Of a DNA stretch of 64,000 nucleotides, positions 9,847 through 41,200 are shown one piece after another. The DNA lies in contig NC_087387.1 in the NCBI RefSeq assembly GCF_963675165.1, positions 5,606,990 through 5,670,989 on the forward strand. Direction: 5' to 3'. Under the pieces are notes generated by a model. The model worked only from the letters and a program-made list of their open reading frames with translations. It was not told the origin of the DNA and ran no database searches. The stretch is from Halichondria panicea. Lineage: Eukaryota > Porifera > Demospongiae > Suberitida > Halichondriidae. Position 1 is the first letter of the stretch. Every line of letters starts with the position of its first letter. Position numbers and translations under genes: made by a program.

Positions 9847-12800
9847 CTTTGGAGTGACTAGTAGCCCCCCGCTTGCCTCAGTGAGAGCACACACACTGAT
9901 CAGGTGGTCCTGCATGGAGCGCTCACTCAGAGCAAATATACCTACAGATGTGTGTATGCGTGTGTGTATGTGTGTGTGTGGGGGGGGGGATCAATGACAA
10001 GCAATGACAAGAGGTAGCATTGCAACAAGCATGTACGCTAGCTAAAATAATCGTAACACAATTACATCACTGCGTCCTTCATGGCTGTGAATTGTTCACA
10101 CACCACACAAGTACAGCCTATACAGTCACTGTACAAGTACTCCCTACTAATTTATAAGTCATGTGACTATTGTACGCCCCCCTATATACTAGTTCCTACC
10201 AGAGTTTGGTTGGCTAGTGAAGCCGACCATCTGGGGCTCATGTCTGCCAATCTTCTCCAGCCTTCTCGCTTCAGAGTACAACTGCAGCAGAGAGAGAGAG
10301 AACAGGTCAACATTATAATTATACATATCAACATAGTCTCACAAAAAATTGTATCTGGGACTGTATTTACAATAATTATTCACCTGAACGAGATCTTGTA
10401 GTGATGTTTCGTGGTGTATTCCCGAGGTCTCATCAAGCAACAACAGAGTGATGGGTTTAAAGGTCACCTTGCCGTCTTGTAGCTCGCTGAGAAGGCGGCC
10501 AGCTGTTACCATGGTAATGGTTGTCTGTGTATGCTTGAACTCCTCACTCACGGTGGAACTGTCAGCACCTGTCGGAAGAGAGGGAGGGAGTACACAGTTT
10601 ATAGTACATATATTTTATACGATGGCTTGTAACTTATAACAGTTTAGATTGTACGTGCATTTACGTAGAGTAGCTCTTTGGTAGCTGTATAGAGCACTTA
10701 GATCAACGATTGCTATTAATCTTAGCTTTTCAGTATTGCAAGAACTGTCAGTATAGGCAATATTGATGATGTATATAGCTAGGGTTTCATGTAGTGTGGG
10801 GCCGGGGGCAGGGGTGAACCTTCCCCCCAAAATTGTGTGGAATAATGACATCATCACATTAGTACTACATGATGACATCATCACAAAAACAATTGATTAA
10901 CTCAACTAAGCCAAACATTTTGCAGCATGCTTACGCGCGCCCAACCCCAAATTTTATCCTAGATGAAACCCGGCCTCCTAAATACATGAAACAAACCACA
11001 ATGATAACCTAGTACTCACCTGTGATGCACTTGATATCTCCGAGTGGCAGGAGCTCCTTCAACTCTGCATGCAACTGCCAGGCTCGACCAAACGTATTTA
11101 CCACAATGAGAATTTTCGGGGAATTTCTCGTATTCTTGATATGCTCACACAGCAACATTGCCATCAGCTTGCCATTTTCAGACGAATTCGCAACGTATGC
11201 TATGTAGCTTTTTTGCTGGAATCCTGGTCTAGTCAGCTCGAAATGGTGGCTGCTTAGATGCGCCTCTGTCTGGTTAAGGGAGAAGTTACCAGTGCCAATG
11301 AGAGGCACTGTTTTGGTAGAGGGTGGTGGGCTGGAGGGCGGAGTCACAAATTCATTGTCGTCCATTGCAGTACCAGAGAAATCTGAAAAAAATTATATAC
11401 AAAGGTAGTCGATGTAGTTAACTACAATTAACGAATAATTATAATAATAATATGCACTATTATATTCAAACTGTGCATATTGAGCATTCAGGATAGATAA
11501 TGGTGACAGTCTGGCTAACCAAATTCCTTTTGAAGCAACTCTTCATACATCCGTTCTCCCGACTGTGTGCGTGGGTGAGTGGGGGGGAGCAGTGCGTACA
11601 TGTACATTACAAGGTAATATTCAGTGTTAATTACTTTACATGTGTGTGACAAGATCTTTCGCAACCTATAGCTAATACACGTTACAGCTGAGTTTGGATC
11701 AATAGTTACAGCATCTGGTGTACACACTGCACGTACAGTAGCTAAAGACTCACTACATTTCACCCATATAACCTAGTAACAGACTCACGCTGGTCATCTC
11801 GTGCTATAGTACCCTAGTAACAGACTCACCCTGGTCATCTCGTGCTGCCCACATATTTCAACTCTCAGCACATTCTTCCCCGTCAACAAGCTCCTCTGAT
11901 TAGCGTCCAACGGCAAAATAAGACCCTTCAAAAAAACCGGCAATTGAAACAACATCACCATGACACCTCCGTTCATTTCAACACCAATCAGCAGGAGAGG
12001 ATAATGGGTCATTTTGAATGCAGTTGAAGCGGCCAATCGGAATGCTTCCAGCTCGTGGAGGGTGTGCTGCGAAGGATCCCAGGAGACGAAGATTCGCAAA
12101 AAAGAGAATCCATTTTTTCGCGGAGGATTGAGAATTCGAGGAGCTAATGTGATTGGACGCTGGTTGAAATAGTTGAGCTTTTGGACGTAAAACTGTTTGA
12201 CACTCGTGTCGCCATAGGCAACCAGAATATCAGTGAGAACGTGATACGTGAATGGAGTGAAGTACGGGTAGATGGCATCAAATATATCCTCTAGCGAATC
12301 GGAATTTCTGAGCGTGTCCAGTAGTTGGTCGTACAGCGGTTGCTTGGTTACGTCTTGGTCACCGTAGGGACGAGTTGCATCAATCTTTTCGAGGAATGCC
12401 AATAAGTTCTGAGAAAATAAATGTACAGTTTTATTTAGAGTTTCAACTTCATATTTACTACCACAAGCTTCAATTTCATCCCTAAAATTTTTCACCATTC
12501 ATACCTGAGGCTCCACCTTCTTGTAGCGGATCATACACAGAGCCTGTGTGACCAGTTGCTGAAACGAGTCAACCAACTCCTCGTACTGTCGCTGCAATCG
12601 AAACACCCTGAGGGGATTTCCCTCCGCGTTAGACGGCCCCAGGTAGGGGAACTCACTGAATACACCCTGAGGGGAGTAGGTGTGTATGAGGGTGTGGCAA
12701 GGGCAGGACGAGACCCCACAGCCGACGCCTGTGTGTGTGGGGGGGGGTCAGATAAAAATGTTGTACACGGATATCATTGAGTAGTTTGTATGGCTCTAGC

Positions 12801-13271
12801 TATAGTCAAATCTACGTAAGTACGACTAAAGCTTTAATTGTCCTGTTTAGGAGAGGTTGCTCACTGCACTGTCAAGGGAGTTCATGTAGATCTATATCAT
12901 TGGATGACATCCCTGCGTGCGCGTACCAACCCAAATGGTCATACTGGCCATGCATGGTTCAGGGTTCCATTATAATCTACGCCGGTACTGCTGTATTAAA
13001 GATAAGTGTGTACAGTTAAAGGTACCTGTTTCAAGATTTGGCGAGTCTTGGTAATGTTCACTCATAGGCTGGTCATCTAGTGTGTGTGTGTGTGTGTGTG
13101 TGTACATGTACATATGTGTGTTGTGTGTGCGTGCCAGTAGACTATACAGTAGCTCATCAATGAACTCAGGCATATAACATACAACAATAACTTACCCATC
13201 CTTAGCTCACTGTAAGCTGTAGCCAGAGATTCTGCTGTAGCATAGGTACGTAATAAAGATTTGTTGGTTGC
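7993..13271 (-). CDS. RIG-I-like receptor with degenerate helicase and novel N-terminal module (5' end not found)
   Basis: Eleven exons join in phase: 13271-13196, 13076-13026, 12728-12505, 12408-11830, 11562-11520, 11382-11020, 10568-10384, 10281-10200, 9941-9847, 9710-9531 and 9240-7993. Together they give 1041 residues plus stop. The first listed exon begins in phase 0 without a clear ATG, so the true start lies upstream. Order: a helical region (DSFQQLVTQA to NYFNQ), an alpha/beta region (RIFVSWD, TLHELEAF), a proline-rich linker, helicase lobe 1, an insert with an RWNQHYIGFVQ block (compare QKYEQW in RIG-I), helicase lobe 2, and a C-terminal RNA-binding domain. The last has two zinc-binding CxxC pairs (CKKC near 8359-8370, CTNC near 8184-8201), then EWGH and LPVLRAKHFLFE, matching the RIG-I/MDA5/LGP2 C-terminal domain. 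Helicase motifs are eroded: motif I reads NSSENGKL, motif II DETS instead of DECH, motif III FTSQ, and motifs V and VI are unrecognisable. Likely a cytosolic RNA sensor or regulator without ATPase activity. Confidence 0.85.
9771..9846. repeat. Microsatellite (CA)n with (CACG)n core
   Basis: A CA/ACGC run lies in the short intron just before the GT donor of the exon ending at 9847. The donor itself reads gtgtgtgtgt, so the splice site sits directly in the repeat. Confidence 0.95.
11770..11850. repeat. Tandem duplication of an exon end and splice donor
   Basis: The sequence taacagactcac-ctggtcatctcgtgct occurs at about 11777 and again at about 11818. The second (upstream in the gene) copy is the real end of the 579-nt exon of the RIG-I-like gene. 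The first is a decoy copy of the exon end with donor cagcgtgagt instead of caggGTGAGT. Confidence 0.75.
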
Positions 13272-13329
13272 CTAATCAGCGTTTACGCCCACAACTTCAT
13301 AAACTAGATTCATAGAACCACAAGAAGTG

Positions 13330-13373
13330 TAGCCTCGAATCCACGCGGATTAATCGGCGTGGATTCGAGGCTA
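13330..13373. mobile_element. Minimal foldback element, TAGCCTCGA family
   Basis: A 44-bp near-perfect palindrome (TAGCCTCGAATCCACGC ... GCGTGGATTCGAGGCTA) is flanked by caagaagtg and caagaaggg, a 9-bp target duplication with one mismatch. It lies just upstream of the first recognised exon of the RIG-I-like gene. Confidence 0.8.
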
Positions 13374-13439
13374 CAAGAAGGGATGATTGTCAGTTGCCAG
13401 CGAGTCTACATATCTATTCATCAATTCAACATGATTTTA

Positions 13440-15030
13440 CAGCATTAGTTAATGTTGAATCATAGATGATACAGTACTGACGTGGATGTGAAACGGCCTA
13501 GTATACGGAGGGGTCCACGGGAATTGTCTGAAGCTATCATCGTAACGAGCAGATTATGTTAGAAACCCTGTAACTGTCATGTTTATATAGCAACCAGAGC
13601 GTAGTAAACAGTGTTCCGTGTCTGAAAACTGGTGAAAATGACCGGCACACATTGATACTTGCAGTGGGCTTGTAGGTAAGACTAGTTTCTCTAAGCTCAT
13701 GGGAGAATATCATATTTTAGCATAAATTTTCCTGTAAAAATACTTTGTGTGAGATTTTTGGCTTGGACAGTAAATATTCAGGTTACCATTCAGTAGTAAT
13801 ACTTGAAGTACACTGTAAACTACGAGGAGAATCTATGTTTGACAACTGTTATGAAAGTTTAGGTGCTATAGAAAGGGCTAAAGCATGAGTTAGTTGCACT
13901 TTTTGCGTGAGATTATTTCTAAACCTGTTGAGCCTACTTTTTGCATATTTAGCTGATGAAAACCTTCGTGTATTGATGCAGCAGGAGAATCTATTAACTA
14001 AGCATACAGTAAAGTTATTGGAAAAATACAGCCTCAAGAAAAATATGTAAAATCCATGTACATGTACTGTTAAACAAAAATTAATGCTACGTTCTTATTA
14101 CAACTACAATTATGATTTCTATCAATAAGTTCACACGTACATGTACATGTCATTAACTTTCCAAATTGCAGTGTTGTCTTTCGCTGAGCTAAGATATCAA
14201 TTGCCAAATGTTAGCTAATTATACTATCAAGTGAAATTTATCCCAGGACCTACTCGAGTGCTACTTCTCTAGGCAACACCATCGGTGAAGACAGCATTAA
14301 CGTCCAACCTCTTTTCAAGTGCCGTGTATCTACACTTGTATATATAGGAATTTCGAACCGGCAAGTTGGAATGTGTCTCTCTCACAGCCACTTCGTAAAC
14401 GATCAAGAAACAGTTTATCGTGTACTATAAATTAATACTCTCAAGACTATTATAATAATTATTAGCATGTACACGTACACGTACACGTACAGATCATCAA
14501 CAATTTCACCCGTTTGCTTATCTCATGCTAGTGTTATGAGTCAGCCACACTTCTTTTGATCTACATGCATGCTACCAACATTGAGTGGCTTGCTTTTTGG
14601 ATATAATTACATGGGTACAGGGGTAGATCTACTATAAAATAATAATTATAGACTATTATTTTACTAGACTAATTATAGAATAGTTAATATCATCTTGCAC
14701 TGGACTGTGCTTCCTCTACTCATTCTACCTCCTCACAGTCACTACTACTGTCTTCGCTTAATACACTTGCAGCATCAATATCCTTTCTGTTAATACATAG
14801 ATTCTCTTTTACCTGTCTCTGGCCAGTTCTGCCAACTCACTTACACAGCTGCTTGGTATAACCTCGATAATTTCCTCGGCGTTTATTTGGATCAAATTGC
14901 CTAATTTACGGAAACTAGTAAATTACCTCGGATATGCCCGTTACTATGATAGCTTCAAGCAGAATACCGGAATCCGGAAACGTTTCACATCCACGTCAGT
15001 ACTGTATCATCTATGGTTGAATATTCAAGA
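13440..15030. repeat. Inverted repeat, arms of about 100 bp, 1.4 kb apart
   Basis: Bases 13452-13555 (gttgaatcatagatgatac, gacgtggatgtgaaacg, gaagctatcat) reappear in reverse complement at about 14930-15025. Both arms contain an open stretch; the + strand one runs on as a 76-codon frame at 14897-15127. The arms may be ends of a decayed transposon or an inverted gene fragment. I do not recognise the product. Confidence 0.65.
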
Positions 15031-15129
15031 GAATATAGCTCTAAAAGGTCGACTAAGCAACGCAACCACTATCACTAAACAAATAAATGCTATAAAAGAA
15101 GGAATAGCCCTTACTATGAAGTCGTGAGA

Positions 15130-16780
15130 GGTCAAGGCCCGTGGTGTGTCTAAAAGTATACTAAAGCAGTTTGAAGGACTATACTGCAAACGTTTATGAA
15201 CAGTAAAGCTTATCCATGGCATGAAACCATTCTATATAGGACTTAGATACATAATAACCAAGTCAAGCAATGTCTTTAGCTGTTTAGGCTTCGCAGCAGG
15301 GAAAGAGAAAAGTTGACATGGAGTAATTCAAGCTATACTCAACAAAAACTAAAAACAGAGTAAAGACAGCGGACTTAGACAAGTTAGAGCTTGTCAGTGG
15401 TGTAAACTTACTTCTCTAGAGTAACCTCCCAGCCTCTGAGTGATCGCTAGTGGATAGGAGAGCTAGAAACAGTTGAAATACAACCAGAGTACGGTGAAAA
15501 CAAAAATAATCGCGATCGCGAAATCATAACGCGGAGTGTTTCAACCATTTACACAGGGAGGCCTGGTCGTTTCCAATCCCCTTCCTTTTCAATCTATGGT
15601 TTGCCCAATGCATGTTTAGCAATATTTCACATATTTTCACTCATGTTCAAACTGTTCTATTTCTGCAGGGAAAGGCCACATCAAGAAACTGGCTGGACAG
15701 ATAGCCTTTTCTCTCTTTGTATCTCTCATTTCATAAATCCATGAACGTTGAATGAATATTGTCATTTTAAAAATTGCACTAATTCGAAGTTTCACCGCTC
15801 TTTGTCTGTCTGACTAAGTAAGTAAGTTTCTTGCCCAACATTTGCTCCAAGTACAGCTCTCTCCAGGATATTCTGCACAGGTTTTCTAAACGACTACAAC
15901 CTGGATTACAAAGCGCTTCTTCAGAGTTTACTGGTGGGGTGATGACCGATCCCTATATAATTATGTGCGGGCATATAATCATGTGATGAATTGATGTTCC
16001 TAATACATGCAGTGTTGAGCACAGGTACACATAGTCCATGCATGCGTAGGGACATGCACGGACAGTACTGGTGACCTGCATGGAATGATGTGGTGGATGG
16101 ATCCGAAACACAGTCTATATACTATGATGTAATGTATTGTACATGTTCATGATGTTGTAACGGATTAGAGTTATATGCTCTCATCTGATTTCTTATTTCC
16201 ACGCTTTTTGGTGGTTCCCCTGGCCAATTCTTCACATTGCAAATGTTTTTCTGGTGGGTAATATTAGAGTCTGAGATGTAGCTGGTCAAGACACATGTAA
16301 CACCTTTGTGCATGCATGCATGGCCATATAATTATATCAAAACCAATGGTGTGTGTTCATTCCGTCATGCACTATAAATTATATAGGTTACTGTCCATCC
16401 ACATGCATGGCTTCAGAATGAGCTATCTTTGAATTTTTGCGCAAACTGTTCACACTATCTCCAAACTTCCATATTGAACTAATTTTATATCTCCTAGCAA
16501 CAAGTTTTAGTTCAGTAAATGGTCTGTGTTATGAGCTTTGGAAATCCAGAAAAAAATCACCCTTCACTACAATCTGGCAGAGTTGTTGGTGGTGTCATCA
16601 TAAAACAATGTTTTTGTGATGTCATCTTTATGAATACCATTAAAATACTTGTGGTATGTATTTCCTGTCTCTTGTCTTGCAAATACTGAAAAGTTGGGGG
16701 TCTTAGGGCAGACTATTCTGAAAAGGCTGCAATGGTATTCCAAGTAAGCAAAAATAGGCCTTACTCAAGAACAAAGCATT
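15130..16780. other. No gene recognised
   Basis: Only short frames and AT-rich sequence are visible. There is no spliced coding chain, RNA gene or clear transposon. Confidence 0.5.
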
Positions 16781-16785
16781 ATTTT

Positions 16786-16938
16786 GCAAATCCATGATTA
16801 AAATCCAAGAAAACATGACTAGAAGCCTATATAGAAACTCTTACTTGCACTTCATTGATCCTTGAGCAGCTGTAGCAGTATACACAGACGGTTACACACA
16901 CACACGCACGCACGCACGCACGCACGCACGCACACACG

Positions 16939-16975
<37 letters not shown>

Positions 16976-17012
16976 CTGTATACCTCGCTTGCGCATGCAC
17001 ACCGAGGCATAA
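16786..17012 (+). repeat. Dispersed repeat with internal (CA)n, copy 1
   Basis: The stretch runs from aaatccatgattaaaatcc, through tagaagcctata, tgagcagctgtagcag and a long CA/CACG run, to tacctcgcttgcgcatgc and cgaggcataat. A second copy with the same order of blocks is at 23214-23400. The family therefore carries its own microsatellite seed. The copies share no terminal inverted repeats that I can see. Confidence 0.7.
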
Positions 17013-17816
17013 TAATGTTTTCACCTTCCATCCTCACCCTTCCCCCGTCACCCTCATCAGTAATCTTAAACCATTTGTTAACCCATAGACATTCCTTTTT
17101 TGTTAGAGTAATCCCTATCTGGAATTCCCTTCCCCTAAATGTTATCAGTATGCATGTAGAGAGAAATGAAATAATATGATGTTCATGTTGTTCACTAATT
17201 CGTCTGGTAATATTCGGTAATTAATCATTGAACACCATTCGTCATGTATATCATATACATGTATAGCAGGTTCCTAAGGAGTATTAGGGTCTGAGAGGCA
17301 GAGTGCATGACGTGGGCCTGACCCAAGATCATTTATTTTAATAGATCAAGATATCTTTGACACTGTTTCGTTGGTGGAGCCACTCTGGTTCTGCCCTTCT
17401 GATCTTAACCACAGCTATATAGGGCTCTGTGGCGACTATCATGCAGTACCATCAAGGGCGTATTTGCATGTAAAGGAGCTTTTCCTTTATAGCATGTATA
17501 CTACATAACTATCTAAGCTCTGTCTTCACCAGACTACCGTGAATGAACGTATATATGTCAGTGGACGTGGACAAGACATAATTAAAAATTGAAAGGGATT
17601 ATAAGTAACAAAACTAATATCCGTCTATCATGCAAAAAAAAACTCTTACTACTTAATCGATGACTTAATTTAATAACAGTTTCACGGACTGAAAAATATT
17701 TAAGACTATGTTAACAGTTGATTAGCAGTTACAGTTTGTGGATTTTTTAACTTCAAAAGATGCATGGCTTATCACTTGAATGTATCCCTAAACCGCTCCA
17801 CCCAGTACAACTAGAG

Positions 17817-20800
17817 CTAGTACAGCCAACACAATTTACTCACAACAGGTAGGACAACATGGAGGATCAATGATGAAGATGAGGACACTATAACTGTGAA
17901 CGGAGAAAAACAAAATGGAATGTCATTTCTATGAGAGCCATATATTATATGTACTTAATAACGATGAATCTGAAAATTAACTGCATCTACCACAATAGAT
18001 TCTAGGTCACTATCTTGAGCAGCTGCACAAATATTTAGGGTAGATATCTACGAAAATTGCAACAAAGAAAATGACTCATGCACTATAGGTATTTGTATCA
18101 AAATAATTTTTACTCGTTAAAAGAACATAATTAAGGTTTGTAACTATAATTATGTATACACATTCACCTTCAGTTTTGGAGCCTCTCCATCAAAAGCACC
18201 AGTAATGCTGCTGCCATCTACACTGCAAGTCCTTGAGTTGCTACCAACCAGATCAAACCCAGTGTCACAACTGTGGTTAGCCGTCACATTGAAAACGTAA
18301 TTGCCAAATCCATCAGTAGCAGCAGAATAGATTATAGTTCCGTTAATTGGATCGTCAAGAGGAGAACATGTTATTGCTGCAAAATTAGAAAGTGTATTTT
18401 ACCAAAAACAGAAGTATAGTATTAACCTTTGCATGATGGAGCCAATTTTTCAAAATCACCAATATAGTGCTACTGCCATCTCCAGAGCATTGCCTTGTAT
18501 TATTACCAACCAGAGCAAACCCAGAGTTGCAACTGTAGGTAGCCATTATATTGAAAGAGAAGCTGTTGTTTTGACCAGGCACATTCGAATAAGACACAGA
18601 GCCGTTGGCTAGATTGGAAAGTGGAGGGCAAGTTATAGCTGTATAATTATGTAGCAGAAATCATCAAATCTACAAAAATGAATGCATAATTATAGTCTAC
18701 CTTCACAGATTGGAACTAGGCCATCGAAGGCACCATTAATGCTACTGCCATCTCCTGTGCAAGTTGTCGAGTTGTTACCAACCAGAGAAAACCCAGTGAA
18801 ACAGCTGTATAGGTAGCCACCACATCAAAAGCATAGTTATACCGTTTTCATCAGCAGTAGAATTCTTGTATGTTACAGAACCATTAGAAGGAATAGTCAA
18901 GAGAGGGCAGGTGATAACTGTTGTATATACAGAGAATATGAGTGATTCAGCCTACAAGTTTAAAGTTGAAGCCATGTAACTCACGCTGACAAGTTGAAGC
19001 TGACTCATCAAAGGCACCAATAATACTGCTACCATGCATCTCCAGTGCAAGTCCTCCCCATGCAACCATGCAGAGAAAACCCAGTGTCACAGCTGTAGGT
19101 AGCTACCACAGCAAATACATAGGTGCCATTTTCATCAGGTGAGGCTCCACCAACGTTAATACTGCCGTTGTTTAGCATGGGCACACCAAGGCAGGTTATG
19201 ACTGGTGAGTGGGTGGAGTGGGAGGGGAGTTAAGAATGTCCAATAACAGAAGGTTGCGCTTACGTTCACAAGTTGGAGCTCCTCCATCAAAAGCACCAGC
19301 AGTGCTACTGCCATCTCCAGTACACATTCCCGAGCTATTACCAACCAGAGAAAACCCAGTGTCACAATAGTAATTAGCCACCACATCAAAGACATAATTG
19401 TTGTTTCCATCTGATGAGACTCCACCAAAGTCAATACTGCCACTAATTGGCGCTACCACAGCAGGGCAGGTTATAGCTGGAGAATAGAGTACAGTTGGAG
19501 AGGGGATAGGAGAGGGTTTACATACATGCAGTCCAGTGAAGAGCTAGCACTCACAGTCACAAGTTGGAGCCGTTCCATTAAAGCCACCGTTGACACTTGT
19601 CCCATCTCCGGTACAAGTCCTTGAGTCGCTATTAATCCAGTGTCACACGAGTAGATAACCGTCACATTGAACTCAAGGTTGCCATTTACATCAGTAACAG
19701 CTCTGCCATAAGACACAGAGCCATTGATTGGGCTCATCAACGGAGGACAGGTTATGGCTGCATTAGAGAAAATTGGTTAGACAGCTGAAACAGAACATGT
19801 TGATGGTCTCACTCACGTTCACAAGTTGGATCAACTCCACTAAAGGCACCGGTAGTGCTACTGCCATCTCCACGGCAAGTCCTTGTATTGTCCCCGACCA
19901 AAGCAAACCCAATGACACAAGTGAAAGTGGCCATTGCACCAAAAGGAATTTGAAATGGATTGTTATTAGCAGAAATAGCTCCACCACCATAGTCTACTTC
20001 ACCGATTATTGGGTCCCTTAGAGCAGGACAGATTATGACTGCATGGGGTGTTCAAAGGTGGAGTGGAGGACCTTAAGTCACAAGACTCCGGACAACAATA
20101 ATTATTGCATTGGATACTCACCTTCACAAGTTGGAGTTGCTCCATCAAAAGCACCAGTAATGCTACTGTCATCTCCAGTACAAGTCCTGAAGCTATTACC
20201 AACCAGAGAAAACCCAGTGTCACAACTGTAGATAGCTATAGCCTTTCAAACTCTAAATCACCATTGTAAACCACAGAACCATTGGCAAGATCGTTCACGG
20301 GAGGGCAGGTAATGACTGCATAGAGTAATGGAGTTTGGTTTAACATTATTCATACACTCACTTTCACAAGTTGGTGCCTCTCCATCAAAAGCACCAATAA
20401 TGCTGCTACCGTCTCCAGTGCAAGTCCTTGTGTTGTCCCCAAGTAGAGAAAACCCAGTATCACAACTGTATGTAGCCATGACATTGAAAGTATAGCTGTT
20501 GCTTTGACCAGGCACATTCGAATAAGAAACAGAGCCGTCGAGAGAATTGAAAATTGGAGGGCATGTTATAGCTGTAGCAGAGAAAAACATTTGCTATATA
20601 ATTTATAACTCGATCCTAGAATATTGTTTAACTTCCTATACCTTCACAGATTGGAGAAATACCATCAAAATCACCATTAGTGGTACTGCCATCTCCAGTG
20701 CAAGACCTTTTATTATCCCCGACAAGAGACAACCCAGTGAAACAGCTGTAGGTAGCCACCACATCAAAGGCATAGGTGTCGTTTTCATCAGCCATGGAAC

Positions 20801-22386
20801 TGTATACCACAGAGCCATTTGAAGGAACATTCGAGGGAGGACAGGTTATGGCTGTAGTGAAAGGAAGTAAACAGTAAATGACATCTTCTATTAAACACTC
20901 AATTTACCTTTACAGATGAATTCATCAGTTCCTGAAAATAATATTATAGCACCAAATCCATTCAGACAGCTACAGTTGAACTACTGTCCCATGTTATTCA
21001 AACAAATAGAATTTTGACCACAGTTGCATTGTATATGGGAGATAATCTCATGCCTCCAGGGTAACCGTAAGAATTGGAAAAGCTGAATCCATACACACTG
21101 AAACACCTAGAACTGCTGAGCTGTTTTGATGGCGGATAGAATGAGCTCCAGCAGACACACTCATTCTACTTATGTGGCCACACACCTCACCACTTGAACA
21201 TGTGATATTCTGCCAGTCAGTTACAATAGAATTGTCCAATAATATTTGTTCAATTTGAAAATACTCGGAAGGAACATACATCGTGACATAGTTGGATACG
21301 AAAAAAGGAAATGCTTCGACAACATAGTTATTTGTATACTGCTCAATTGGAGGGATTATCATCATGAATGGGTCTCCCACACCACCTTCACCACCATATG
21401 CATACTGAGCGACCAGTACTAGAGAAGTGTTCAATGCTACAGACACTTAATAGTGAGTACAAACTCTCTGAAACTTCCTCCACTCTCAGTCTGTAACTGG
21501 AATTCACTGACCAATACCCCAGTGACGCAGTTCACAGCTACAGTTGCTGCTCGGGCACTAAGAACACGAATACGTTCACCAGAAGACCTACCCTCGAGAG
21601 ATGCTACGAGGAATTTTGAACCCCATGTCACAGTCGGAGGCACTTGCTCAACCAGGTGGTCACAATAGCTTCTACCTGTTGGAACGTTAGCACAATCAGA
21701 TCCGCTAAACACAGACAAAGGTTTGGAGCTAGTTATTCTTGTTCCTGTGAGATCATTAGTACCACTTGCAATCAGATATGTTTCCATACTATTGAGTGAT
21801 ATTGTTGTGGAATGGAATTTGACAACAGTTCCATTTTCACAAGCTACCACCAAAATCACACTAGGATATATACTGAAAGTGTCATAAGAAATTCCATAAT
21901 ATTCGTATTCATCCACTGCCATTACAGTACAGGGTAATGCTAAGTAGGCATCTGCAGACAATTCTTCAAAAGAGATCCCAAACACGTTTACGTTTCCGTC
22001 AGCTTCAACAAGGATCCCCTTGTTCCTTTCATTGACAGACAAAACCTCAAAACTGATTACCGTATAGTTGAAGAGTTAGAAATATTCCTGCTCAGATCAA
22101 TTGGAGTGACCATAAAACTAACAGCACTTGACTCTGGGTTTGTAATGAACAAGTACAACTGATCTGCTGCCTCACTACCATTTATAGGGAAACCCACCAC
22201 AAATTTGTTGCCAGTTGATGAGGTCACATCTATAGGATCCATGCAATGAGAAATGTACAAGCATATAGATGTACAAGAATTCAGGCATGCAGTCTTACCT
22301 GTGACTTGGGCATCACAAAATGCTTTCTTGTGAGCAAATGTGATTACGATTATTGACAGGGTCAAAGTAGCAATCCTGTAGCTCAT
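17817..22386 (-). pseudogene. IgGFc-binding domain plus ten sushi (CCP) domains, surface protein with multiple frame lesions
   Basis: Exon 1 (22386-22299) gives a signal peptide (MSYRIATLTLSIIVITFA). Exon 2 from 22229 carries an IgGFc-binding N-terminal domain (SVFSGSDCANVP, CDHLVEQVPP, GDPFMMIIPPIEQY, YGYPGGMRL). A short linker exon (near 20938-20915) leads to ten single-exon sushi domains, mostly phase 1, at about 20852, 20571, 20318, 20037, 19759, 19474, 19200, 18919, 18640 and 18377. The last exon (17893-17817) encodes a serine cluster followed by a hydrophobic tail, like a GPI-attachment or membrane-anchor signal. Sushi domains 1, 2, 4 and 6 are intact. The rest, and the IgGFc domain, carry about ten frame breaks. 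Either this is a recent pseudogene or the sequence has systematic indels. Intact relatives would be adhesion or complement-like surface receptors. Confidence 0.8.
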
Positions 22387-28443: not shown

Positions 28444-28495
28444 ATAGCCTCGATCCCAGCCCCTCTCAATTAAAAGTGGCCTGGAATTAAGGCTG
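28444..28495. mobile_element. Degenerate foldback element, TAGCCTCGATCCC family
   Basis: The left end tagcctcgatcccag and a decayed right end (ggcctggaattaaggct) are inverted. The flanks gggtttgg and gggtttca are similar. Confidence 0.55.
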
Positions 28496-31056: not shown

Positions 31057-31142
<86 letters not shown>

Positions 31143-32853
31143 TACTAGACCTAGATACAGGGCTACATGTAGCTTTGCTAGAGGATGATTGGTCATCATC
31201 TAGTCTTACCACAAATCTATCCTTAATATACAAGTGGTTTCTATCAAACCAGCATACCAAGTTACATGGAGTTGCCTGTCAATGCACACATTGCCAGGCA
31301 TCGCTAATAGGCACCAACAACAAACAATACAGGAGGTTGTGGTGATAGAAAATGGGCGTGGCCTCACATTTTTCACGCGGGCACGCGCGGTTCCTTTTCA
31401 AACTTCCCCTTAGAATCCTAGATGAAACCCTGACTACCTATCAACGAGTTGTTACGCGCATGACGAGTCTAAGGCAACCACAAGAATGCAAATGTCACAA
31501 GTACTCGTGTGCCACCGCCCACTTACTTACTATTACGGCACAAAGTACTACCATGCAGCCTTGAGTACACATATCTCTGTCGGCCTTAATCGAGGCTTGA
31601 AGTATTCACCCATGTTTTGTATACACACACACAAGAGGATATGCACACAGTCCTAGTGCGGTTAAGCATGCTTACTTTAATTCAAAAGCACTTGCCTGAC
31701 TGCACGCTGTAGGATATGCTGCTATGTATCCTACAGCTGTTGACCAATGAATGTAAGTGCATGTGGTATAAACACGTTTGCATTTTGCTGGGACAATTCT
31801 TTCTTCTTGCAAAGGGCGTGGCTTTCAGTCTAATAACTGTATACCTCACATGCATGACTATCATGTGACCTACCGGCGTTGTTGACTAGCATGTCCACTC
31901 GTCCAAACAGCTGACGTGCTTTGTCCACAGACACTCTGGTGGCCTCGGGATCAGAAAGGTCGACAGGGAGCACCCTGTAGTTGAATGAACCATAGATAAA
32001 CAAATATCCTTCTCTATTCGTTTATCTATGAATGAACCAACACTTTAGTTAGTTATTATGGAACCAGTTACACAAAAGTTTAATACTTAAAGGGCTACAA
32101 AATGCATATTTAGTTAACGAATGCATGGGCATCTTAACTTAACTTCCCAAAACTGGCCAGTTTTTGAAATTACAAACACACATCAATTAAAAAACCCCGA
32201 AGTTAATTTAGAGCAAAGTATATACAGTGTATATGATACGGTTACCAAAGAGCTACTAAAAACATCCTTTACTAAAACTCTGGATTACGCTCACTCCATA
32301 TTATATAGCTGCTTCGGCTCTAAACGAATTACCTTGCGTTTTCTGGATTATAGAGATTGTTCCTGACCTCCTCTAGTTTGTGCTGAGTTCGTGCAGTCAG
32401 GATTAGCTTGGCCCCAAGTTTTGAGAGCTGGTAGCACATCTCTTCACCAACTGTAGCAATGCGTGTACTCCGACAGATGCATGTGCAACCATCAGTAATA
32501 ACTTAGGACAAAAAAATGACACATCTAGATCTATCCTAATTGTAGGCCCGGGAAATTGATGCATATCAGGCAGTGTCAGAAAATTAATATTTGTGTTATT
32601 GTATTGTGGGAACCACTCTAAACCATAACTTCCACTGGTCTTCTATTTTTTACGTGTTACAGATCTCACTTCCAGAGCTAGCTCCAGTGATCCACACAAC
32701 TCTCCCATTGAAGTAACCTGGTTTCAATCGACTGCCCAGCACCTGGAGGTCAGCATCTGCAGTCAGTAACCTCACCAATCTGTGGAGGAGGTAGCCAGCA
32801 ATGGCTAGGTGAGCAAGAACCAGCAATAGCAGCCACATCTGATCTAAAAACAT
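28995..32853 (-). CDS. DHRS7-like short-chain dehydrogenase/reductase, membrane-anchored
   Basis: Exons: 32853-32670, 32450-32333, 31974-31874, 30904-30797, 30725-30592, 29906-29767, 29322-29300 and 29120-28995. Exon 1 has an N-terminal hydrophobic segment (MWLLLLVLAHLAIAGYLL), then the cofactor motif TGASSG-IG. Exon 3 supplies NNAG, exon 5 the ISS and the catalytic YSSAK, and exon 6 the APGPV loop. The C-terminus VWVSEQWW fits the DHRS7 subfamily, so the product is probably an NAD(P)-dependent oxidoreductase anchored in the endoplasmic reticulum. Exons 1-6 join in phase. The 23-nt exon 7 leaves the last exon one base out of frame, so an exon boundary here is wrong or the transcript skips part. 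Family length is about 310-340 residues and this gene fits. Confidence 0.85.
31057..31138. repeat. Microsatellite (GA)n, about 80 bp
   Basis: A nearly pure GA run lies in an intron of the dehydrogenase gene. It makes long spurious frames of alternating Ser-Leu or Arg-Glu. Confidence 0.95.
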
Positions 32854-33149
32854 AGAGCTGAAGTGATCCTGTACCCAGGAACAATGGAAAAGGGTCACTA
32901 CAATAGAAAGCTAGAAATTCTACATGTAGTAGAATTTGAATATTGCTGTCTCCGAGCATACATACTATAAATTTATAGTATCTATGCTCCGAGGGCAGGC
33001 TGTACATATAGCTACTAGTAGCTAGCTAGAACTCTGGAACCATACTTCTCTGAGACTTCAGGGTTCTTTGCTGTGATCCACAGCCGGTGCATATATCTAT
33101 GTATTTATGTACCACTATGTACCACTACACTACAGTTGTTGCTCCGGTG

Positions 33150-33300
33150 TGTGCACACGAGATCAACTTTCATGAGATCAACTCCCACGAGATCAATTCT
33201 TACCAGAGCAACTTTGCATGAGGTCAATTGTTAGTAGATCAACTCTCGTAGAATCAACTTTTCATAGGATCAACTTCATGTGATCAACTCAGTTTTACAA
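33150..33300. repeat. Short-period tandem array of GATCAACT units
   Basis: About eight copies of a (g)a-gatcaact core are spaced 17-20 bp apart, with variable spacers (ttcatga, cccacga, ctcgtaga, tttcatag). Not an open frame. It lies between the dehydrogenase start and the start of the ROC-COR gene. Confidence 0.8.
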
Positions 33301-33730
33301 AAAAACGTTGCACTTACAAATTTTACAGTTAACTAGCTGTGTCTGCTGTCTAGTTGGACCAGATTTAGCTAGATAATGGGGTAGAGAATAGTTGAGCGGT
33401 GCTGTGTGTAGCTTGAACTGTACTGGCTGGCAAGAATCTAGTAAGCACCCTATGCACTGATAACTCGTCAGAATGGAGGGTATGTTCTAGGGATCTGGAC
33501 AGCTGTACATCCAAAGGAGCCAGGGAGTGCCAATCATCTTCTCCCAGTCTCTGACACGCTAAACAAAACGAGCTGGAACTGGGAGTCCCAGCTAGAATTG
33601 CTAGCCGGATCTAGACTAATAGAATGACATGGAGGCGTGGTGAGGCCGGATCCACACTAATTGATCGACCTAAAGACGCTCCTGTTCCAGATTTCACGAA
33701 TGGCAAGGAAAGGGTTAAATCAAGTTCTTA

Positions 33731-33965
33731 CAGTGTCTAGAAGTTTAAAACGTTATTTTGCAGGGGGATCAAATTTTATTTTCGCCAATTTTGCTCAGAA
33801 GCTGAGATACAGCGTTGCTCTTTGTACTAGCCGCGATATCGTGAGCGGCTTGTTCTCGAGGTCACCGCACAGCTGGCTTTGATACTTATATCTCTGCTTC
33901 TGAGCAAAATTGGCAAAAATAAAATTTGACTCCCCCTGAAAAATAACGTTTTAAACTTAGACACT
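33731..33965. repeat. Foldback sequence, arms of about 80 bp
   Basis: The blocks agtttaaaacgttatttt, cagggggatcaaattttatttt, gccaattttgctcagaagc return in reverse complement at 33890-33965. The loop is about 75 bp. It is 210 bp upstream of the proposed start codon of the ROC-COR gene. Confidence 0.85.
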
Positions 33966-34171
33966 AAAAACTAAGCTTGAAGTAGTCTGCAAGAGAAGTC
34001 CAATTAGTGACCTTAATTAGCTAAGGTCAAGTGGTTCCAGCCTCCTCTGAAGGTCGCGCCGCCATGTTTTCCAGCTTACAAGTGCGCATGCGCAAAGTCA
34101 ACAAGGTACGCCCTCCAGCACCACAACATTTTGTTGGCTTCTTAAATATAATCTGCTGGCCGACGTGCAAC

Positions 34172-37131
34172 ATGGCTACTGTTAATGTTGGAGCCGGAGA
34201 CTCAGAGGATAGTGGAGAAGCATCGCCACTAGATGGTGAGTGTGGGGGCAAACTATTGCTAAATCTAGGAATAGTAATTACTGAACCTCTTACTAAAATG
34301 TGATACTTTAGCTAGGAACTGTACGTTTCATCCTAGTAAAACTATAGTTATTGTCCACTTATGATGCAGTAGATTATATACGGACCTAAGGTAGTACCTC
34401 ACCATGGTTTAGCTATTATACAAAAACAAGCTTGTGCATATAACATTAACACAGCCAGTGCTAATACACCAGGCAACTTTCAGGCAATCTACAATGATTG
34501 TAGGCAATAATTATGAATTGCCTGCATATTGCGTGCAACGAGTTGCTTACAATACTTGTACCCTGACCTTTAAAAATGGTGGTTAAGAGTATGTTATTAC
34601 TCGAGGCGAACGTGGGCGGCCATGGGTATAGTAGTACTTTGGTCTGTTTGTCTGTTTGTTTGTGATAATTATGTGAGTCTACTCACCTGGATGCCATAGC
34701 ACTGCGTTTACAAACATCGATAGCCTCCACACAACAAGTTATTAGCTTGCTTCGTTGTTGTATGAAAGCAAGTAAGAAGCTTGAACTTAAATTGCACGTT
34801 GCTACATAATTATTTGCAGCTGAAGTGATCCTTTACCAGTCTCTATTAAAAGTAGAACTGTAGGTTGTTGCTTCACTACTCCTCTGGTTTTTATATTCAT
34901 GTCAACAGCCGAAGGTTAGCACTTCAGTGCTTAATCAAAATAGAGTCATTTGGACTGGAAAATTGGACTTTATAATAAAAGCAGGATCTCTCTTCAATCA
35001 GTTCACTAACCTCTGCCACTCAAACAAATGGCCATTTTGATACACGTTCAGATAATTATGAATTGACAGCATGGGTAGCGTGGTTTTATGACAAATAAAT
35101 GATTACTGTGTTTCAGCTGGACTTCCAGCACACTCTAGCTACTCACAATCACTATAATTATATAGATGTAGCTCATGAATAATAAGCAAACGGTATACCG
35201 AGCACTAGCTGTCCCTTTGTATAGACAGTATAATGGAAACAGTAATAGAATCCGATGGAGAATATGAAAATGGCTCTGCATGCAGTGTAGGTCTATCAGA
35301 TCGAGGCTCTAGTTAGTGGCGTTATCATGTATAGATAGCTGTTACAATCATGAGTGGTAAATGACTACCGTATGGCGGGTAATTTTCGTGGGGTAAAATA
35401 TTCGTTCAACTCGAGAAACGGTGGTGTTCGTGAGTAAAAATTTCGTTTAGTCTCGTTGCCTGCACTGCATTCCTATGTTCCGGTAAGTTCCGGTAAGCTA
35501 CGCCTGCGTTAAAATTTCGTGGAGGTCAGCTTGCCCACGAAAATAACTATATTTTACCCCACGAAAATTACCCACTATACGGTATAGATGAGTATGTGAG
35601 CGAGCCCACTCAATTTTTTGTAGCTAGGCCTATATCAGTTTAACAAACACATTCCAAGAAATCATGAATATTGCCAGGAGTACATGAATAGGAGTAAGCA
35701 ACTACTATGTACACCATATAAATTCGTTATTATCTCAATACGTCACAAACACTTGTAATAGTGTAAACTGTGGTTACTTTGTGTACACATGACCATGTAT
35801 GGCTGCATGGTAGGCTCACTAGAAATTGTCAACAAGAGTGCAAGTGCATGTGCAGGCTAGGCTGAAACTATATACATGCAAGACTTAGAGAATAGCATAG
35901 ATCTAGATCTACTCAGCTAATATCATCTAGAGAATGCTTAACCTTAGAAAAAGACGGAATTGGGCTGTTCACCATGAAATTGGTAACTAATCTTTGCTGA
36001 ATAACATGTTTGATGCAAGGCAAAGCAGTTAGCATTGTGTGTGGTGCCGGGTTACCGTGTATAGAGAGAACTAAACTAGAGGTGTGACAAGCTGCTAAAG
36101 TTGCTCCATCTCTTACTTGCAATGGTTGACGTTGTTTCCTCAAGACACACAGCTTGCAATAGCAAGTTGTGTGTCTGAGGAAACAACGTCAACTAGACAC
36201 AGCAGTAACAAGAAATTAAAAGTAGGAGTTTCTTCATAGTCTGAGTCGATTGCTTGTGAGTCTTTTGAGAGCTTCATTTCTACCCCAGATGCAACGCAAC
36301 GTAGGAATTTGAAAATTTAAGTATGCATCTTTGCCTCTACACTTGATGTAAAATTGTTTGTATTGATTGCACAGGCGGTCTGCAAGCTTCACCAAGCCAT
36401 CATCCTGTTCCTTAGAGATTATATTAAAAACCTATTTTCTCTCAGGGTACATCTAGTTGTGGTAGCTTCTCTACTTCTTCAGTTAATTTTCTCACCAATG
36501 CTAGATTATTTTAGCAAGCTTTTTGGCAACTTCTATCACAGTTGCTTTGCTGTGTTCATGTTTCTTTGCTTTTCTTCATTAATTTTTGTGCAAGAGCTAG
36601 CCACCTGGACCTATTCTACCACATGCACAGTGCATGTAATTAACCACACTGTTTTGATGTTTTGATTGTGGTTGTAGGCCACTTGAGATGTGGGCGTTTT
36701 ACACATGTAGTATGACGTGGCATGACACAGTGAGATAACAACACGTTTGTATGGGCTGTATAGTAGTTGCTTACTCCTATTCATGTACTCCTTGATCCTG
36801 ATATTGCGTATACTATTGTTTTTGTGGGCATGAATCTTATTACTGGAATCATTACAAGATAAGGCCAAAGAGATAAGGCCAAGCAAAGTCGATTAATTGT
36901 TTCTCATCAACTTGTGATAAAAGTAGCTGTCATTGCTCTGACACACCCCTTAATTTCCACATGCTCTAAAGAAAGTGATGGGCCATGACTGTGCTGATGT
37001 TAAGAAAAAAATTTTCCTGTAATTTTTATGACTTTAATATAATGACCTCCCCTTCAGGAAGTGGCTGATAAGAAACTAATAATTTGCCTGGCCTAATGGT
37101 ACACGCACTGTCACACAGTGACACACACACG

Positions 37132-37186
<55 letters not shown>

Positions 37187-38243
37187 ATCACACACCGTTC
37201 ACATGCATACACACACACACGAATCACACACCGTTCACATGCATACACACAAGCACACGCAAATGCAAGTTTTAGGCCTATAGCTAACTTAGTTAACTGG
37301 TGTATATAGATTAGTTTCAGTAAGTGTATAGCTTCCTCTCTGGCTAGCAGTTCAAGAGCAGTGATGGTTGAACCACTGAGCTACTTGAGTCTGGATGGGG
37401 GTACATGCCCTATAAGCACCACCCTGTGTACGCCACTGGTGGTGGAATTCGCCGGATAGCCACCATAAAGAAACACACACATGCACTACTATTTATTTAA
37501 ATTGACAAAAGCCTGGAGCTAATTCTAAGAACCCAAATTAGAGGTTAATGATCTTCTTTAGCTTAACCATGTACCACATAGAGGAACCAACCCACTATCA
37601 GCTATACTACCACCACAAAACCTGGCCCAGACAATACAGTCCTGAGTACTTCATAATTATGGCCTCGGGTCAGAAGTTAGTTTGCACAACATGTACAGCC
37701 AAGCCAAGTAGCTAATTAAAGTATTATATATACAGCAACCAATATCAAGTCCAAGATAAGAAATAGCTTACAATAGTTATTCAGTATTATGTGACTTTGA
37801 ATGCAACAGATAAATGGGGAGGGTTGGTCAACCATTCTCTAATCTCAAGGTTGCATGGGCATCTACCTGTTAATTCCTGCATGTATGTCTTTCTGGTTTG
37901 AGTGTTAATTTTTGTTTTCACACATCTGCTCTACTTACCGTATATAGCGAGTATTTTTCGTGGGACAAAATATTCGTGGTTTTCATGGTTGAAGGTCTGA
38001 CCACGAATATTTTACCCACGAATTAAGCGACCTTGCCTACCTTTACCTGCAGTGCAAGCTCCAACCACGAAAATATTACCTGCGAAATGTCTCAATATTG
38101 CTGAACCACGAATATTTTGTCCCACAAAAATTACCCGCTATACGGTATAACTAAATAACATAGACAGGTTTCCACTAGTTGAGCATTCTGTGTTGAGTGT
38201 ATGCATGGTATACGATTGACGATGCATGGAAAGCCACTCTCTC

Positions 38244-38287
<44 letters not shown>

Positions 38288-41200
38288 GAATGTTATCAGT
38301 GATTTTCTTCGGTATGATTGCCTCACAAGGGTATGATTTTGTGCATGGATGAGGGTCCTGTTTTCGTGTGTGCATGTGTATGATTTTCTGGAGGGTGCAT
38401 GTCTAATTCTGCAACCTCAGCAACTTCAACGTCCTTTTGCAGTGTCAGCATATTTAGGGTAGAATTTTCTGGTGGGTATTATATTGTCACTGATAATGAT
38501 TATGCATGCACACAGAGATGTGTGATATGCGTACACTGTATGACAAACTTCACCCAGCTCGCACTGAATGGTTTAATATTGGGTTGACACTGAACTTACC
38601 AATCGAATCATTGAAAGAGATTGACCTTCTTCATAAGCAAGATCCTAAGACGTGTCTCTGCACAATGCTGACTAGAAGACTGGATGCAGGTCCCCTCTCA
38701 TGGGGGGAAGTGTGTGACTGTCTTCGATATCCAATCGTGGGTCGTAACAATTTAGCAGAGGCAATTGAAGAGTGGAGAAAAGGTATGGCATAGATAGCGG
38801 AAACTGATTATCTTCACATGCTTCTACAACTATTCACTAGCTTTTCCAATAGAAATGATGGGCAAAAAGCACTCTAAGACAACACCTGCTCAAGTTCCTT
38901 TTCCTTTATCAAAAGTAGTGACTGGCCATATGCATGGTAAGTACAGCCTGAGTTGGTTTACAGAATGTGTGTAATTGGTAAATTCAACACAGGTCCTGTA
39001 AATTATCACTCCAGTTTGGATGATCAAGTGGATCACCTGGAGACATCGTTTCAATGGCTAACGAATGAAGCATTTCGAAGAATGAAGATATCTAATGTTA
39101 GTGTTGACGATTTCTATGTCGCTATATCAAATATGAAGCTATCAATGAAATGTCTAGCTAAAAAGTATGTTGAAGAATGCTTTGAGAAAGCCAGTACGCT
39201 CCCAAAAATTTGGGGCAAACTAAATCATTTCTGGAATTTCTTCAACTATGAGCTTTTCCAACAAGTGGTTCGAGTCATGTTCACTAAAGCAGATGATCCT
39301 TTGCTGAGCCAACTAGCCGAATATGAGAATGAGATGAAAACATTTCTTTGTAGAACAAAACTTTGTGACTTTGTTGACCATTGGCCATTTTCAATTGCAA
39401 AACCAAAGAAAAAAGCAATAAAACAACTTAAAAGAATATTTGTTACAGTGGACAAAAAATGGGAAGACTGCACTTTACACGATGTGAAGAAAACTAAAAC
39501 AACATTTTCAGTAGGTTTTTCGCTACCTCAGGAATTTATGGTGCTGAAAGGTGCTGGTACCGGCAGTGTGTCAATCCTCTTACATGCCCCTCCATCTCTG
39601 GCTAACTCAATAGAGGAACAGGTGAAACAAGGAAAGGATGACTTCTTAGCAGACAATGGCTTTCTTTCCATCACCATCGATGGTGTCCAGGTCTATCCCC
39701 ACACTCCAATGAGGCAGGCCTCTCTACAAGGTACTACTTTGTTCTCTTGATGCACATAATATACCTGAAAACTTATTCCCATGATATGCATAAGTTATCA
39801 CAAGCATCATCTCTCTTATTATTGGGGGTGTCAGTTGTGAAACTTTATACAGTGTGTATATATATATACGGTGTGTTTGTGTTTTTCGATAAAGTGCCTC
39901 ACGTTCTTTTTTCGCAGTTTTAACAATGGAAACACTAAAGAAAGAAACTAAATTCACTGACGAGCAGCTGGACACAAGAGTAGAAAAAACTGACCTACCA
40001 CAATTATCGTCATATTTCGACAACATCTATGACGGCTATCTTGAGAAGCTGGGCCTCTCATCTGGACAGCAAACTGATGTGAGGAGTCATGCATTCGTAC
40101 ACGGTAGTCAGGGTGGAATGTTGTTAGCTCTGACATACTGGCTGGACAGAGTTGTTGCAGAGGGCACATTCAGAGCTCTGCTACTCATCTTACTCTCCCT
40201 GGGCAAAGAAGACGTTGCTATCAAGGTGGCACAGTACTTGTCAGCCAAGGGTGAGTGAGTAGCTACTAACACAGCGAGGGGTGGAGTGTTGTCTGTCATT
40301 AGTATGATGATAGATCCGTTGCCTATATAGCTTGCTCACTTTCTAGCTAGCTATTGAGGTGACAAAGACATCCGGTTAGTGAGTGGGGTGCATTATAATT
40401 ATAGATGCTATAGTACATGTATAGTTCAGTCTATAGAATATAAATTAACTTGATAATTGTTACAGGTTATTCCATAACAACATCTGAGCTGGATGCAATG
40501 GAGATCAACACCAAAGAACCTATTGAATCAAAAAGTAAGCTGACACCATTACCCCTTTATCTGAGTTAATTATACAGTATAAATTATATTATATAGCTGC
40601 ATGCATGCATGGAATAATAATAGGTGTACTCGATATTCAACAGGTGATGATCAAACTATCAACGAACACAATGCAATGATAATAAATATCCTGGAAACCA
40701 AGTACAATGTGGACAATGGTAAGTATAAGTTTTCCGGCAACAATAAAAATATGTACTGTACCGTACAAGTACTTTTTTCCTTTTGACCCTGAGGATATGC
40801 AGTGCCTCCTACTCTATTTATGCTAGTTAAGCAGTAACTTAAGTCATCGATTTCCTATAGGGGTCTAAGCTTTGTTCATTTGACGTCCCTGTTGGCTTTT
40901 TGGTATCTAAACCACGCCCACACCCCCGTGGAGGCTTAGCCACCTTCTTGTTGGAAAGCAGCTTCCGTGATTCTGCCATCGCTTTAGAGTGCCGCCAAGC
41001 AGGGCTGTTTGCTGGACAATTGAAAAACACCTTGAAATAATATTACGTGCATACCCTGGGGTTCGCTGTATGTTATAATTATAGCCAGGAGCGGATCTAG
41101 CAGGTAGCAGAGGGTGCTCAAGCACCCCCCTGACCTTGGACAAACTTGTGTCTCACTCATTGGCTGATGAAAGTCACTCCCAGACTTGGTACTAGCTATA

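Follow-up and report, generated by a model that had tools for sequence, protein, structure and literature searches.

We have identified a two-part module that is shared by an RLR-like gene and a ROCO gene in the window (the whole stretch of 64,000 nucleotides of Halichondria panicea DNA that was analysed). With a probability of about 0.85 it represents the unvarying adaptor part of the TRADD-N repertoire of sponges, in which a DED-like helical bundle and then a TRADD-N domain are carried by many receptor and switch proteins. The N-terminal helical bundle consists of about 110 residues, the RRM-like TRADD-N of about 95. A preliminary description of this DNA treated the module as unnamed, yet it very probably corresponds to the dyad of Death-like and TRADD-N domains that has been in print since 2021, in the main text of Kaur et al. 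(PMC8195603).

Judged from sequence, the RLR and ROCO copies are homologous in both halves. That one two-part module is common to the two genes had been proposed in the preliminary description, and profile–profile comparison bears this out. A profile of five RLR-type sequences aligned with one of eight ROCO/NLR-type sequences over 208 columns (hhalign probability 99.2, E 6e-20, one comparison). Larger groups of 17 and 16 sequences gave a probability of 99.6 (E 5.5e-24), with all of the controls, eight column-shuffled and one reversed, at 0.6 or below. The helical halves alone (98.6, E 7.1e-16) and the alpha/beta halves alone (98.0, E 2.3e-13) also aligned group against group. A profile F, built from 17 family members with the window sequences excluded, matched just two of the 1232 open reading frames of the window, the RLR exon (9.1e-17) and ROCO exon 4 (2.2e-15), and aligned with the window RLR copy at 98.2 (E 3.2e-14). 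A profile that left out the ROCO copy still recovered the ROCO frame at 7.1e-94 and the RLR frame at 1.9e-9. The kinship is visible to profiles only; BLASTP between the two modules as single sequences found no match, Pfam with just the two window modules and NCBIfam gave nothing useful for the module, and PDB profile searches with it gave no meaningful match. The motifs SFQ-x-L, RIFV-x2-D, TLH-(E/D)-(L/V) and L-x-(I/V)-x-I-x-G, noted earlier, are exact in both copies. The aromatic block is also present, better written as L-x2-I-x6-(Y/F)-(F/W)-x2-F-x-Y, as is the glycine block, for which G-x-V-x3-L serves better than the original G-x2-G-x-V-x-L.

The RLR-like gene lies on the minus strand and was modelled as nine exons with GT-AG borders, giving a single reading frame of 978 residues that is uninterrupted by stops; the splice sites were chosen by hand, all GT-AG and keeping the frame. 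The exon at 12505..12666 (acceptor CCCCTCAG, donor GTATGA), which was aligned to family members, hosts the FPYL motif and the first module helices, and that at 11830..12408 the remainder of the helical half together with the complete TRADD-N half (about 12123-11830). The module, placed at 12728-11830 in the preliminary description, is spliced (12666-12505 plus 12408-11830), which makes 12728-12667 a probable intron. A linker exon (11562-11520) is followed by the exons of helicase domain 1 with degenerate motifs I, II and III (11382-11020, 10568-10384 and 10281-10200), and by those of the helicase insert, domain 2 and the C-terminal regulatory domain, or C-RD (9941-9847, 9710-9531 and 9240-7993). 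The C-RD itself, at 8038..8379, matches PF11648 (E 6.8e-17) and has all four zinc cysteines.

The window RLR looks catalytically dead, and ordinary ATPase activity of its helicase is unlikely. The DEAD match reaches 27.0 bits (cut-off 26) over profile positions 33-157, with the P-loop part unmatched. In place of the intact ATPase motifs of an SF2 helicase the predicted protein has ANSSENGK for APTGSGKT, DETSGIHH for DECHH and FTSQP for LTASP, and motifs V and VI, lost from domain 2, are not recognisable. This alteration of motifs I, II, III, V and VI is what would be expected if the gene were a decaying copy that, through disuse, had lost its helicase motifs along with the turn residue of TRADD-N. 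The turn fits too, as the window RLR is one of only two among 41 copies without Ser/Cys there, the other (L036) being cut short at that point. We nevertheless regard decay as unlikely, because the nine GT-AG exons keep a frame of 978 residues open, the helicase scaffold can still be aligned, at 25% over a length of 571 residues (E 2.5e-40), and the C-RD aligns at 35% with its four cysteines kept. A possible though doubtful reading is that of a dead sponge RLR that is expressed and selected, whose C-RD reads RNA ends without ATP hydrolysis and which signals or blocks via its DED-like half and a TRADD-N without Ser/Cys, alongside Death-type RLRs with an intact DECHH. With ordinary ATPase activity improbable and the turn Ser/Cys absent from its TRADD-N, the RLR copy probably works differently in detail; for the protein, a role as an ATP-independent RNA-end receptor, a scaffold or a negative regulator is more likely than that of a standard RIG-I. 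LGP2, which has a regulatory role, is similar in that the CARDs are absent and the C-RD present, and different in that its ATPase motifs are kept; to our knowledge it has no adaptor module.

Four other RLR loci in the genome keep DECHH, and both of those whose upstream DNA was examined (L107 and L108) have a Death-type exon upstream and no CARDs. The preliminary description saw the module as a replacement for CARDs. It does occupy the CARD position of vertebrate RLRs, but the comparison is misleading, because these two loci have a Death-type exon and RLRs of the Death type are reported for Amphimedon too (PMC8998645). Like the window RLR, the type A1 receptors of Amphimedon have a helicase and a C-RD and no CARD; they carry a Death domain, as does the L107 gene, where the window RLR has the helical and TRADD-N halves instead (PMC8998645). 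RLRs with the module as a class were considered and rejected, as only one of six C-RD matches in the genome has a module locus nearby on its strand (3.4 kb); for the rest the nearest same-strand locus, among 151, is at least 550 kb off.

The C-terminal half of the module is very probably a TRADD-N domain, as indicated by several profile comparisons. When 41 members were compared with Pfam, the family matched most often was PF20694, TRADD-like_N (6/41, best 5.7e-4, below cut-off). Genome-wide, its eight matches at E<=1 all lie inside module loci, which make up 0.067% of the genome, and begin 0.65-0.71 along the locus; none of the eight reaches the curated cut-off (best 20.7 bits). Consensus F matched PF20694 at 5.6e-5 (residues 146-206, 23.3 bits, short of the cut-off of 23.7) and PF13820, NCOA6_TRADD-N, at 0.017 (residues 144-208); a genome search with the PF13820 profile found nothing at E<=1, and no control matched either. 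With the all-member consensus PF20694 (0.025) came third, after Rsd_AlgQ (0.0062, helical part) and LIF_OSM (0.0096, residues 105-166), with the C5-group consensus it came second (0.046) after FRP (0.008, helical part), and with the ROCO/NLR-group consensus it was absent at E<=1. A bacterial TRADD-N profile (20 sequences, 14 cyanobacterial genomes) aligned with the tail of F, the FPYL group, in register at the IE-G-(S/C) turn and with a score of 28.5 (p 1.2e-4; best of 60 shuffles 18.5), and with the tails of 39 members, window copies excluded, at 24.7 (best of 60 shuffles 17.4). The ROCO/NLR-group tail scored 18.4, under its best shuffle of 20.7. As this group has no PF20694 or bacterial TRADD-N signal of its own, its TRADD-N assignment depends on its being homologous with the other group.

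The best of five AF2 models of the RLR C-terminal half has the beta-alpha-beta-beta-alpha-beta (RRM-like) order that the TRADD-N superfamily requires, with strands at 6-15, 43-48, 54-60 and 85-96 and helices at 22-37, 62-65 and 74-81. Its confidence is modest (mean pLDDT 63.4, pTM 0.51, from two input sequences only); two of the five models exceed a mean pLDDT of 60 and the other three lie at 36-42. An AF2 model of the entire ROCO module, made from a single sequence, was of unusable quality (pLDDT 41.8). A tiny residue, Gly or Ser, precedes Ser/Cys at the beta2-beta3 turn in 39 of the 41 members (24 Cys, 15 Ser), including the window ROCO copy with GS. The window RLR copy has NGGV there and would belong to the superfamily by homology only. 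That every Pfam TRADD-N match is below cut-off, and that the ROCO/NLR group by itself gives no such signal, would suit an independent domain, RRM-like or ACT-like, with no more than a resemblance to TRADD-N, and the module would then be a new adaptor pair. We think this improbable, given the coincidence of all eight PF20694 matches with the module, two TRADD-N models that hit the same residues of consensus F, the conserved turn, and the 357 TRADD-N proteins of a single sponge, mostly behind Death-like domains, that are reported in the main text of Kaur et al. (PMC8195603).

For the helical half our assignment, DED-like, is a weak one. Fourteen sponge DEDs scored 18.3 and 22.0 against the helical halves in hhalign, with probabilities of just 4.4 and 15.8; the shuffle maxima (60 each) were 13.4 and 15.5, and the reversed DED gave 13.9 and 11.9. 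None of the 32 genome-wide Pfam DED matches falls in a module. A Death domain was rejected, as two sponge Death groups scored 9.0-16.0, weaker than DED, with 4 and 5 sequences compared to 14.

In the ROCO gene, on the plus strand, the module sits between two Death-type domains, as first described. Exon 4 (38993..39730), whose borders agree with AG and GT, encodes the DED-like half from 39007 and the TRADD-N half at about 39421-39702. The first Death-type domain (38500..38783), which resembles those encoded upstream of two other RLR loci (phmmer 1.7e-6 to L107, 3.9e-7 to L108), has no Pfam match. Neither has the second (39918..40250), with relatives at L006 (2.7e-16) and L022 (4.2e-14) that themselves match Pfam Death at 0.001 and 0.0023, both below cut-off; the relatives of these flanking exons were found by pairwise phmmer. 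Ankyrin repeats and the Roc GTPase follow at 57628..58443 (Roc about 57904-58317, 29.2 bits, cut-off 27), then a putative COR region at 58422..59885 (COR-B E 1.8e-4, with 21.8 bits against a cut-off of 27). A third Death-type domain (60645..61040), a paralogue of the second (pairwise phmmer 1.7e-24), has no Pfam Death match.

It is quite improbable that the fusion in the RLR-like gene is a reading error, with the module exons and the helicase/C-RD exons belonging to two adjacent genes. The model was read from genomic sequence alone with hand-chosen borders, and frame agreement over one junction has a chance of one in three; both sets of exons are on the same strand, however, 267 bases separate the GTGAGT donor of the module exon from the next acceptor, and the frame is open across all nine exons.

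The module is not peculiar to the two genes on which the preliminary description focused. At least 151 loci were counted in the genome, NLR-type frames included (rows were copied by hand, leaving out those already covered and, in one search, those above E 0.001), and the module presumably spread by duplication and exon shuffling. Among five module frames that were picked for length and scanned, four run on into NACHT and one into LRRs, and at L053 the module is followed by a kinase frame of equal strand. Eight hand-picked Roc matches of 141 include three with a module within 1.5 kb and two more within 6 kb, on either side; as these were hand-picked and only part of the candidates was scored (150/354 for Roc, 102/265 for NACHT), we claim no rate of association. 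The common adaptor function suggested earlier is plausible. That the module itself senses a ligand for both receptors, the other half of that suggestion, has no support and is very unlikely, as it adjoins Death-type domains and parts whose own role is that of a sensor or switch (C-RD, NACHT, ROC-COR, LRR, kinase).

Vertebrate TRADD and DEDD2 are not known to share a chain with a sensor or a GTPase. Both couple TRADD-N to a Death-superfamily domain as adaptors, TRADD in the order TRADD-N then Death, according to the main text of Kaur et al. (PMC8195603). The same text describes a very large expansion of the Death-like and TRADD-N unit in the sponge Amphimedon queenslandica and proposes bacterial roots for the system. 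Its NCOA6-clade proteins have the layout seen here, in which one or more Death-like domains precede TRADD-N and the C-terminal part behind it varies (ankyrins, SH3-LRR, kinase, caspase and others), although no RLR, ROC-COR or NACHT partner is named for Amphimedon in the main-text parts of PMC8195603. Those parts do describe fusions of the unit to an RLR-like RNA receptor in the DEDD2 clade of cnidarians and brachiopods, i.e. in other phyla and another clade, whereas the RLR here is from a sponge and has degenerate helicase motifs.

By analogy with TRADD and with the proteins discussed in the main text of PMC8195603, engagement of the receptor part (an RNA-binding C-RD, ROC-COR or NACHT) would cause the receptor to change shape or cluster. 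The helical half may then recruit partners via homotypic contacts, and the TRADD-N may free flanking domains or dock a downstream partner (TRAF2 in vertebrate TRADD), with an inflammatory or cell-death output.

With the module named, one adaptor system connects a sponge RLR with a ROCO GTPase, with NLR-type proteins and with a kinase, and a common downstream partner thereby becomes a testable question. The results also suggest that the RLRs of one animal genome can carry at least two non-CARD kinds of signalling head, and that one kind sits on a receptor whose ATPase is apparently dead.

The preliminary description had proposed that the RIG-I-like receptor (RLR) gene and the ROC-COR (ROCO) gene encode a common two-part module, a claim that profile comparison bears out. 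The window corresponds to C11:5606990-5670989 of a 131 Mb assembly, and the genes it holds are consistent with a sponge. Among the six-frame ORFs of the window, the RLR module exon falls in 11797-12498 on the minus strand and the ROCO module exon in 38941-39747 on the plus strand. BLASTP of one module against the other gives no match, and Pfam scans of the single copies return nothing worth naming. Relatives for both profiles were drawn from the same 131 Mb genome assembly, where the RLR copy finds 15 matches at E<=0.001 and the ROCO copy 47 at E<=0.01 (the query counted in each case), with one locus, C4:4069029-4069625, matched by both (1.3e-4 and 4.7e-8). In a single comparison, the profiles of RLR-type and ROCO-type relatives align over 208 columns with probability 99.2 (E 6e-20). 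For larger groups, the FPYL-type (F, n=17) and the ROCO/NLR-type (N, n=16), the probability is 99.6 (E 5.5e-24), against at most 0.6 for eight column-shuffled controls and one reversed control, and each half is homologous separately between the groups (98.6 and 98.0). Profile F, built without any window sequence, matches only the RLR and ROCO ORFs out of 1232 ORFs in the window (9.1e-17 and 2.2e-15). Significant profile-profile similarity was found where its absence would have spoken against a shared module, and therefore the observation stands: as judged from sequence, the two modules are homologous.

The arrangement of strands and helices in the C-terminal half pointed to an RRM-like fold, hence TRADD-N was taken as a hypothesis and then tested. 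When 41 members were scanned one by one, PF20694 (TRADD-like_N) was the commonest family (six members, best 5.7e-4). Across the whole genome PF20694 matches eight times at E<=1, each time below its cut-off; all eight matches lie inside module loci, which cover 0.067% of the genome, and start 0.65-0.71 along them. The F consensus reaches 23.3 bits against a cut-off of 23.7 and matches NCOA6_TRADD-N over the same residues (0.017); in the all-member consensus PF20694 (0.025) ranks third, behind helical-part and linker matches, and the N consensus has no PF20694 match. We also compared bacterial TRADD-N sequences, 20 of the 22 matches found, from the 14 cyanobacterial genomes with matches among 36 searched. 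These score 28.5 against the F tail, with the IE-G-(S/C) turns of the two aligned (maximum of 60 shuffles 18.5), 24.7 against 39 mixed tails (shuffle maximum 17.4) and 18.4 against the N tail, which is under its shuffle maximum of 20.7. An alignment of the RLR and ROCO tails, using window sequence only, models as beta-alpha-beta-beta-alpha-beta, with a best pLDDT of 63.4 and three of the five models poor. Of the 41 members, 39 retain the Ser/Cys in the turn between beta2 and beta3, a residue that is conserved in TRADD-N and makes the TRAF2 contact in TRADD (Kaur et al., PMC8195603).

The helical half appears to be DED-like, an identity less certain than that of the C-terminal half. Compared with the two helical halves, a set of 14 sponge DED sequences scores 18.3 and 22.0, with hhalign probabilities of only 4.4 and 15.8; these scores exceed all 60 shuffles in each case (maxima 13.4 and 15.5) and the reversed sequences (13.9 and 11.9), and two smaller sponge Death-domain groups score lower (9.0-16.0). 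None of the 32 genome-wide Pfam DED matches falls in a module locus. The position fits a DED-like reading, because in the proteins described by Kaur et al. (PMC8195603) TRADD-N directly follows Death-like domains, which are often DED. At G000:C10:2919173-2923384 (minus strand) there are two Pfam DED matches, 3-4 kb upstream of same-strand module fragments; DED and module may belong to one gene here.

The module is not confined to the RLR and ROCO genes. Three additional branches of the family, used as queries on the same genome, matched 49, 125 and 72 times at E<=0.001, and at least 151 loci, some of them fragments, remain once the E<=0.001 matches of all five queries are merged (same strand, within 1.5 kb). 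Five module ORFs, picked for length, were scanned for partners: four run on into NACHT (L014, L015, L018 and L021; Pfam E 8.9e-11 to 3.3e-17), with a sub-threshold NLRC4_HD2 match in three of the four, and L017 leads into leucine-rich repeats. The L053 module is followed by a same-strand ORF for a protein kinase, and the modules of L006 and L022 are each preceded by an ORF that matches Death below cut-off (0.001 and 0.0023); in all three cases the module and its neighbour probably form single genes. With this many loci and partners, the module is a unit in wide use rather than a private link between RLR and ROCO. The stretches 3' of the module at L064 and L022 share a GLAII-type segment with no Pfam match at E<=0.01, which we take to be reminiscent of caspase-like folds.

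The ROCO gene, read domain by domain, has the order Death-type, module, Death-type, ankyrins, Roc, COR (below cut-off) and Death-type. Parts of its ankyrin region (41342-42524 and 46555-48051, plus strand) are duplicated some 5.2-5.5 kb apart, with 78-97% identity in four repeat families. Within the gene span, 54464-54906 is a minisatellite with a 57-base unit (7.8 copies, 98% matches); several of its frames are open, on either strand. ORFs at 19202-22075 (minus strand), between the RLR and ROCO genes, carry Sushi repeats and an IgGFc-binding domain, and are perhaps one gene.

The window RLR can be read through nine exons and 978 codons (counted from a provisional start, with hand-chosen borders), with GT-AG at every border and no internal stop. 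Its C-RD is clear (6.8e-17, all four cysteines), and over 571 residues its helicase scaffold aligns with another RLR of the genome (25%, E 2.5e-40). Helicase motifs I, II, III, V and VI are nevertheless degenerate (7993-11562, minus strand): APTGSGKT has become ANSSENGK, DECHH DETSGIHH and LTASP FTSQP, motifs V and VI are unrecognisable in the translation, and the Pfam DEAD match begins at profile position 33, past the P-loop. The turn Ser/Cys is missing from its module as well, and from just one more of the 41 rows, which is cut short at that point. The gene may be decaying, or its product may be a receptor that has become independent of ATP. We tentatively favour function over decay because of the open frame and the conserved C-RD.

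The genome has six C-RD matches, and only that of the window is close to a known module locus. DECHH is kept in all four RLR helicases read (L039-L042) from the other five C-RD loci, and the P-loop APTGSGKT was seen in one (L107 with L039), where a Death exon lies upstream (Pfam Death 0.0013, a sub-threshold match). Another Death-type exon, L108, stands right ahead of the helicase ORF that belongs with the C-RD at C1:9508308 and ends about 2 kb short of this C-RD. Both exons are related to the ROCO gene's first Death-type domain (38500-38783; pairwise phmmer 1.7e-6 for L107 and 3.9e-7 for L108), which on this similarity is a second domain common to ROCO and RLR genes.

The Death-like plus TRADD-N unit is already in the literature, as is the very large number of copies it has reached in a sponge, and TRADD-N fusions to RLRs have been reported from cnidarians and brachiopods (PMC8195603). 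We found no sponge RLR fused to TRADD-N stated in the sections of that paper drawn on here, its source data aside. What is new is this member, the set of fusions in this genome and an RLR with degenerate helicase motifs. In TRADD, TRAF2 is recruited through TRADD-N, whose turn Ser lies at the contact, and the Death domain pairs with Death domains of other proteins; Kaur et al. propose that TRADD-N, placed between a constant and a variable part, reshuffles contacts on activation (PMC8195603). The ROCO, NLR and kinase fusions would use one adaptor unit for reaching common partners, and the window RLR may feed or damp this adaptor system.
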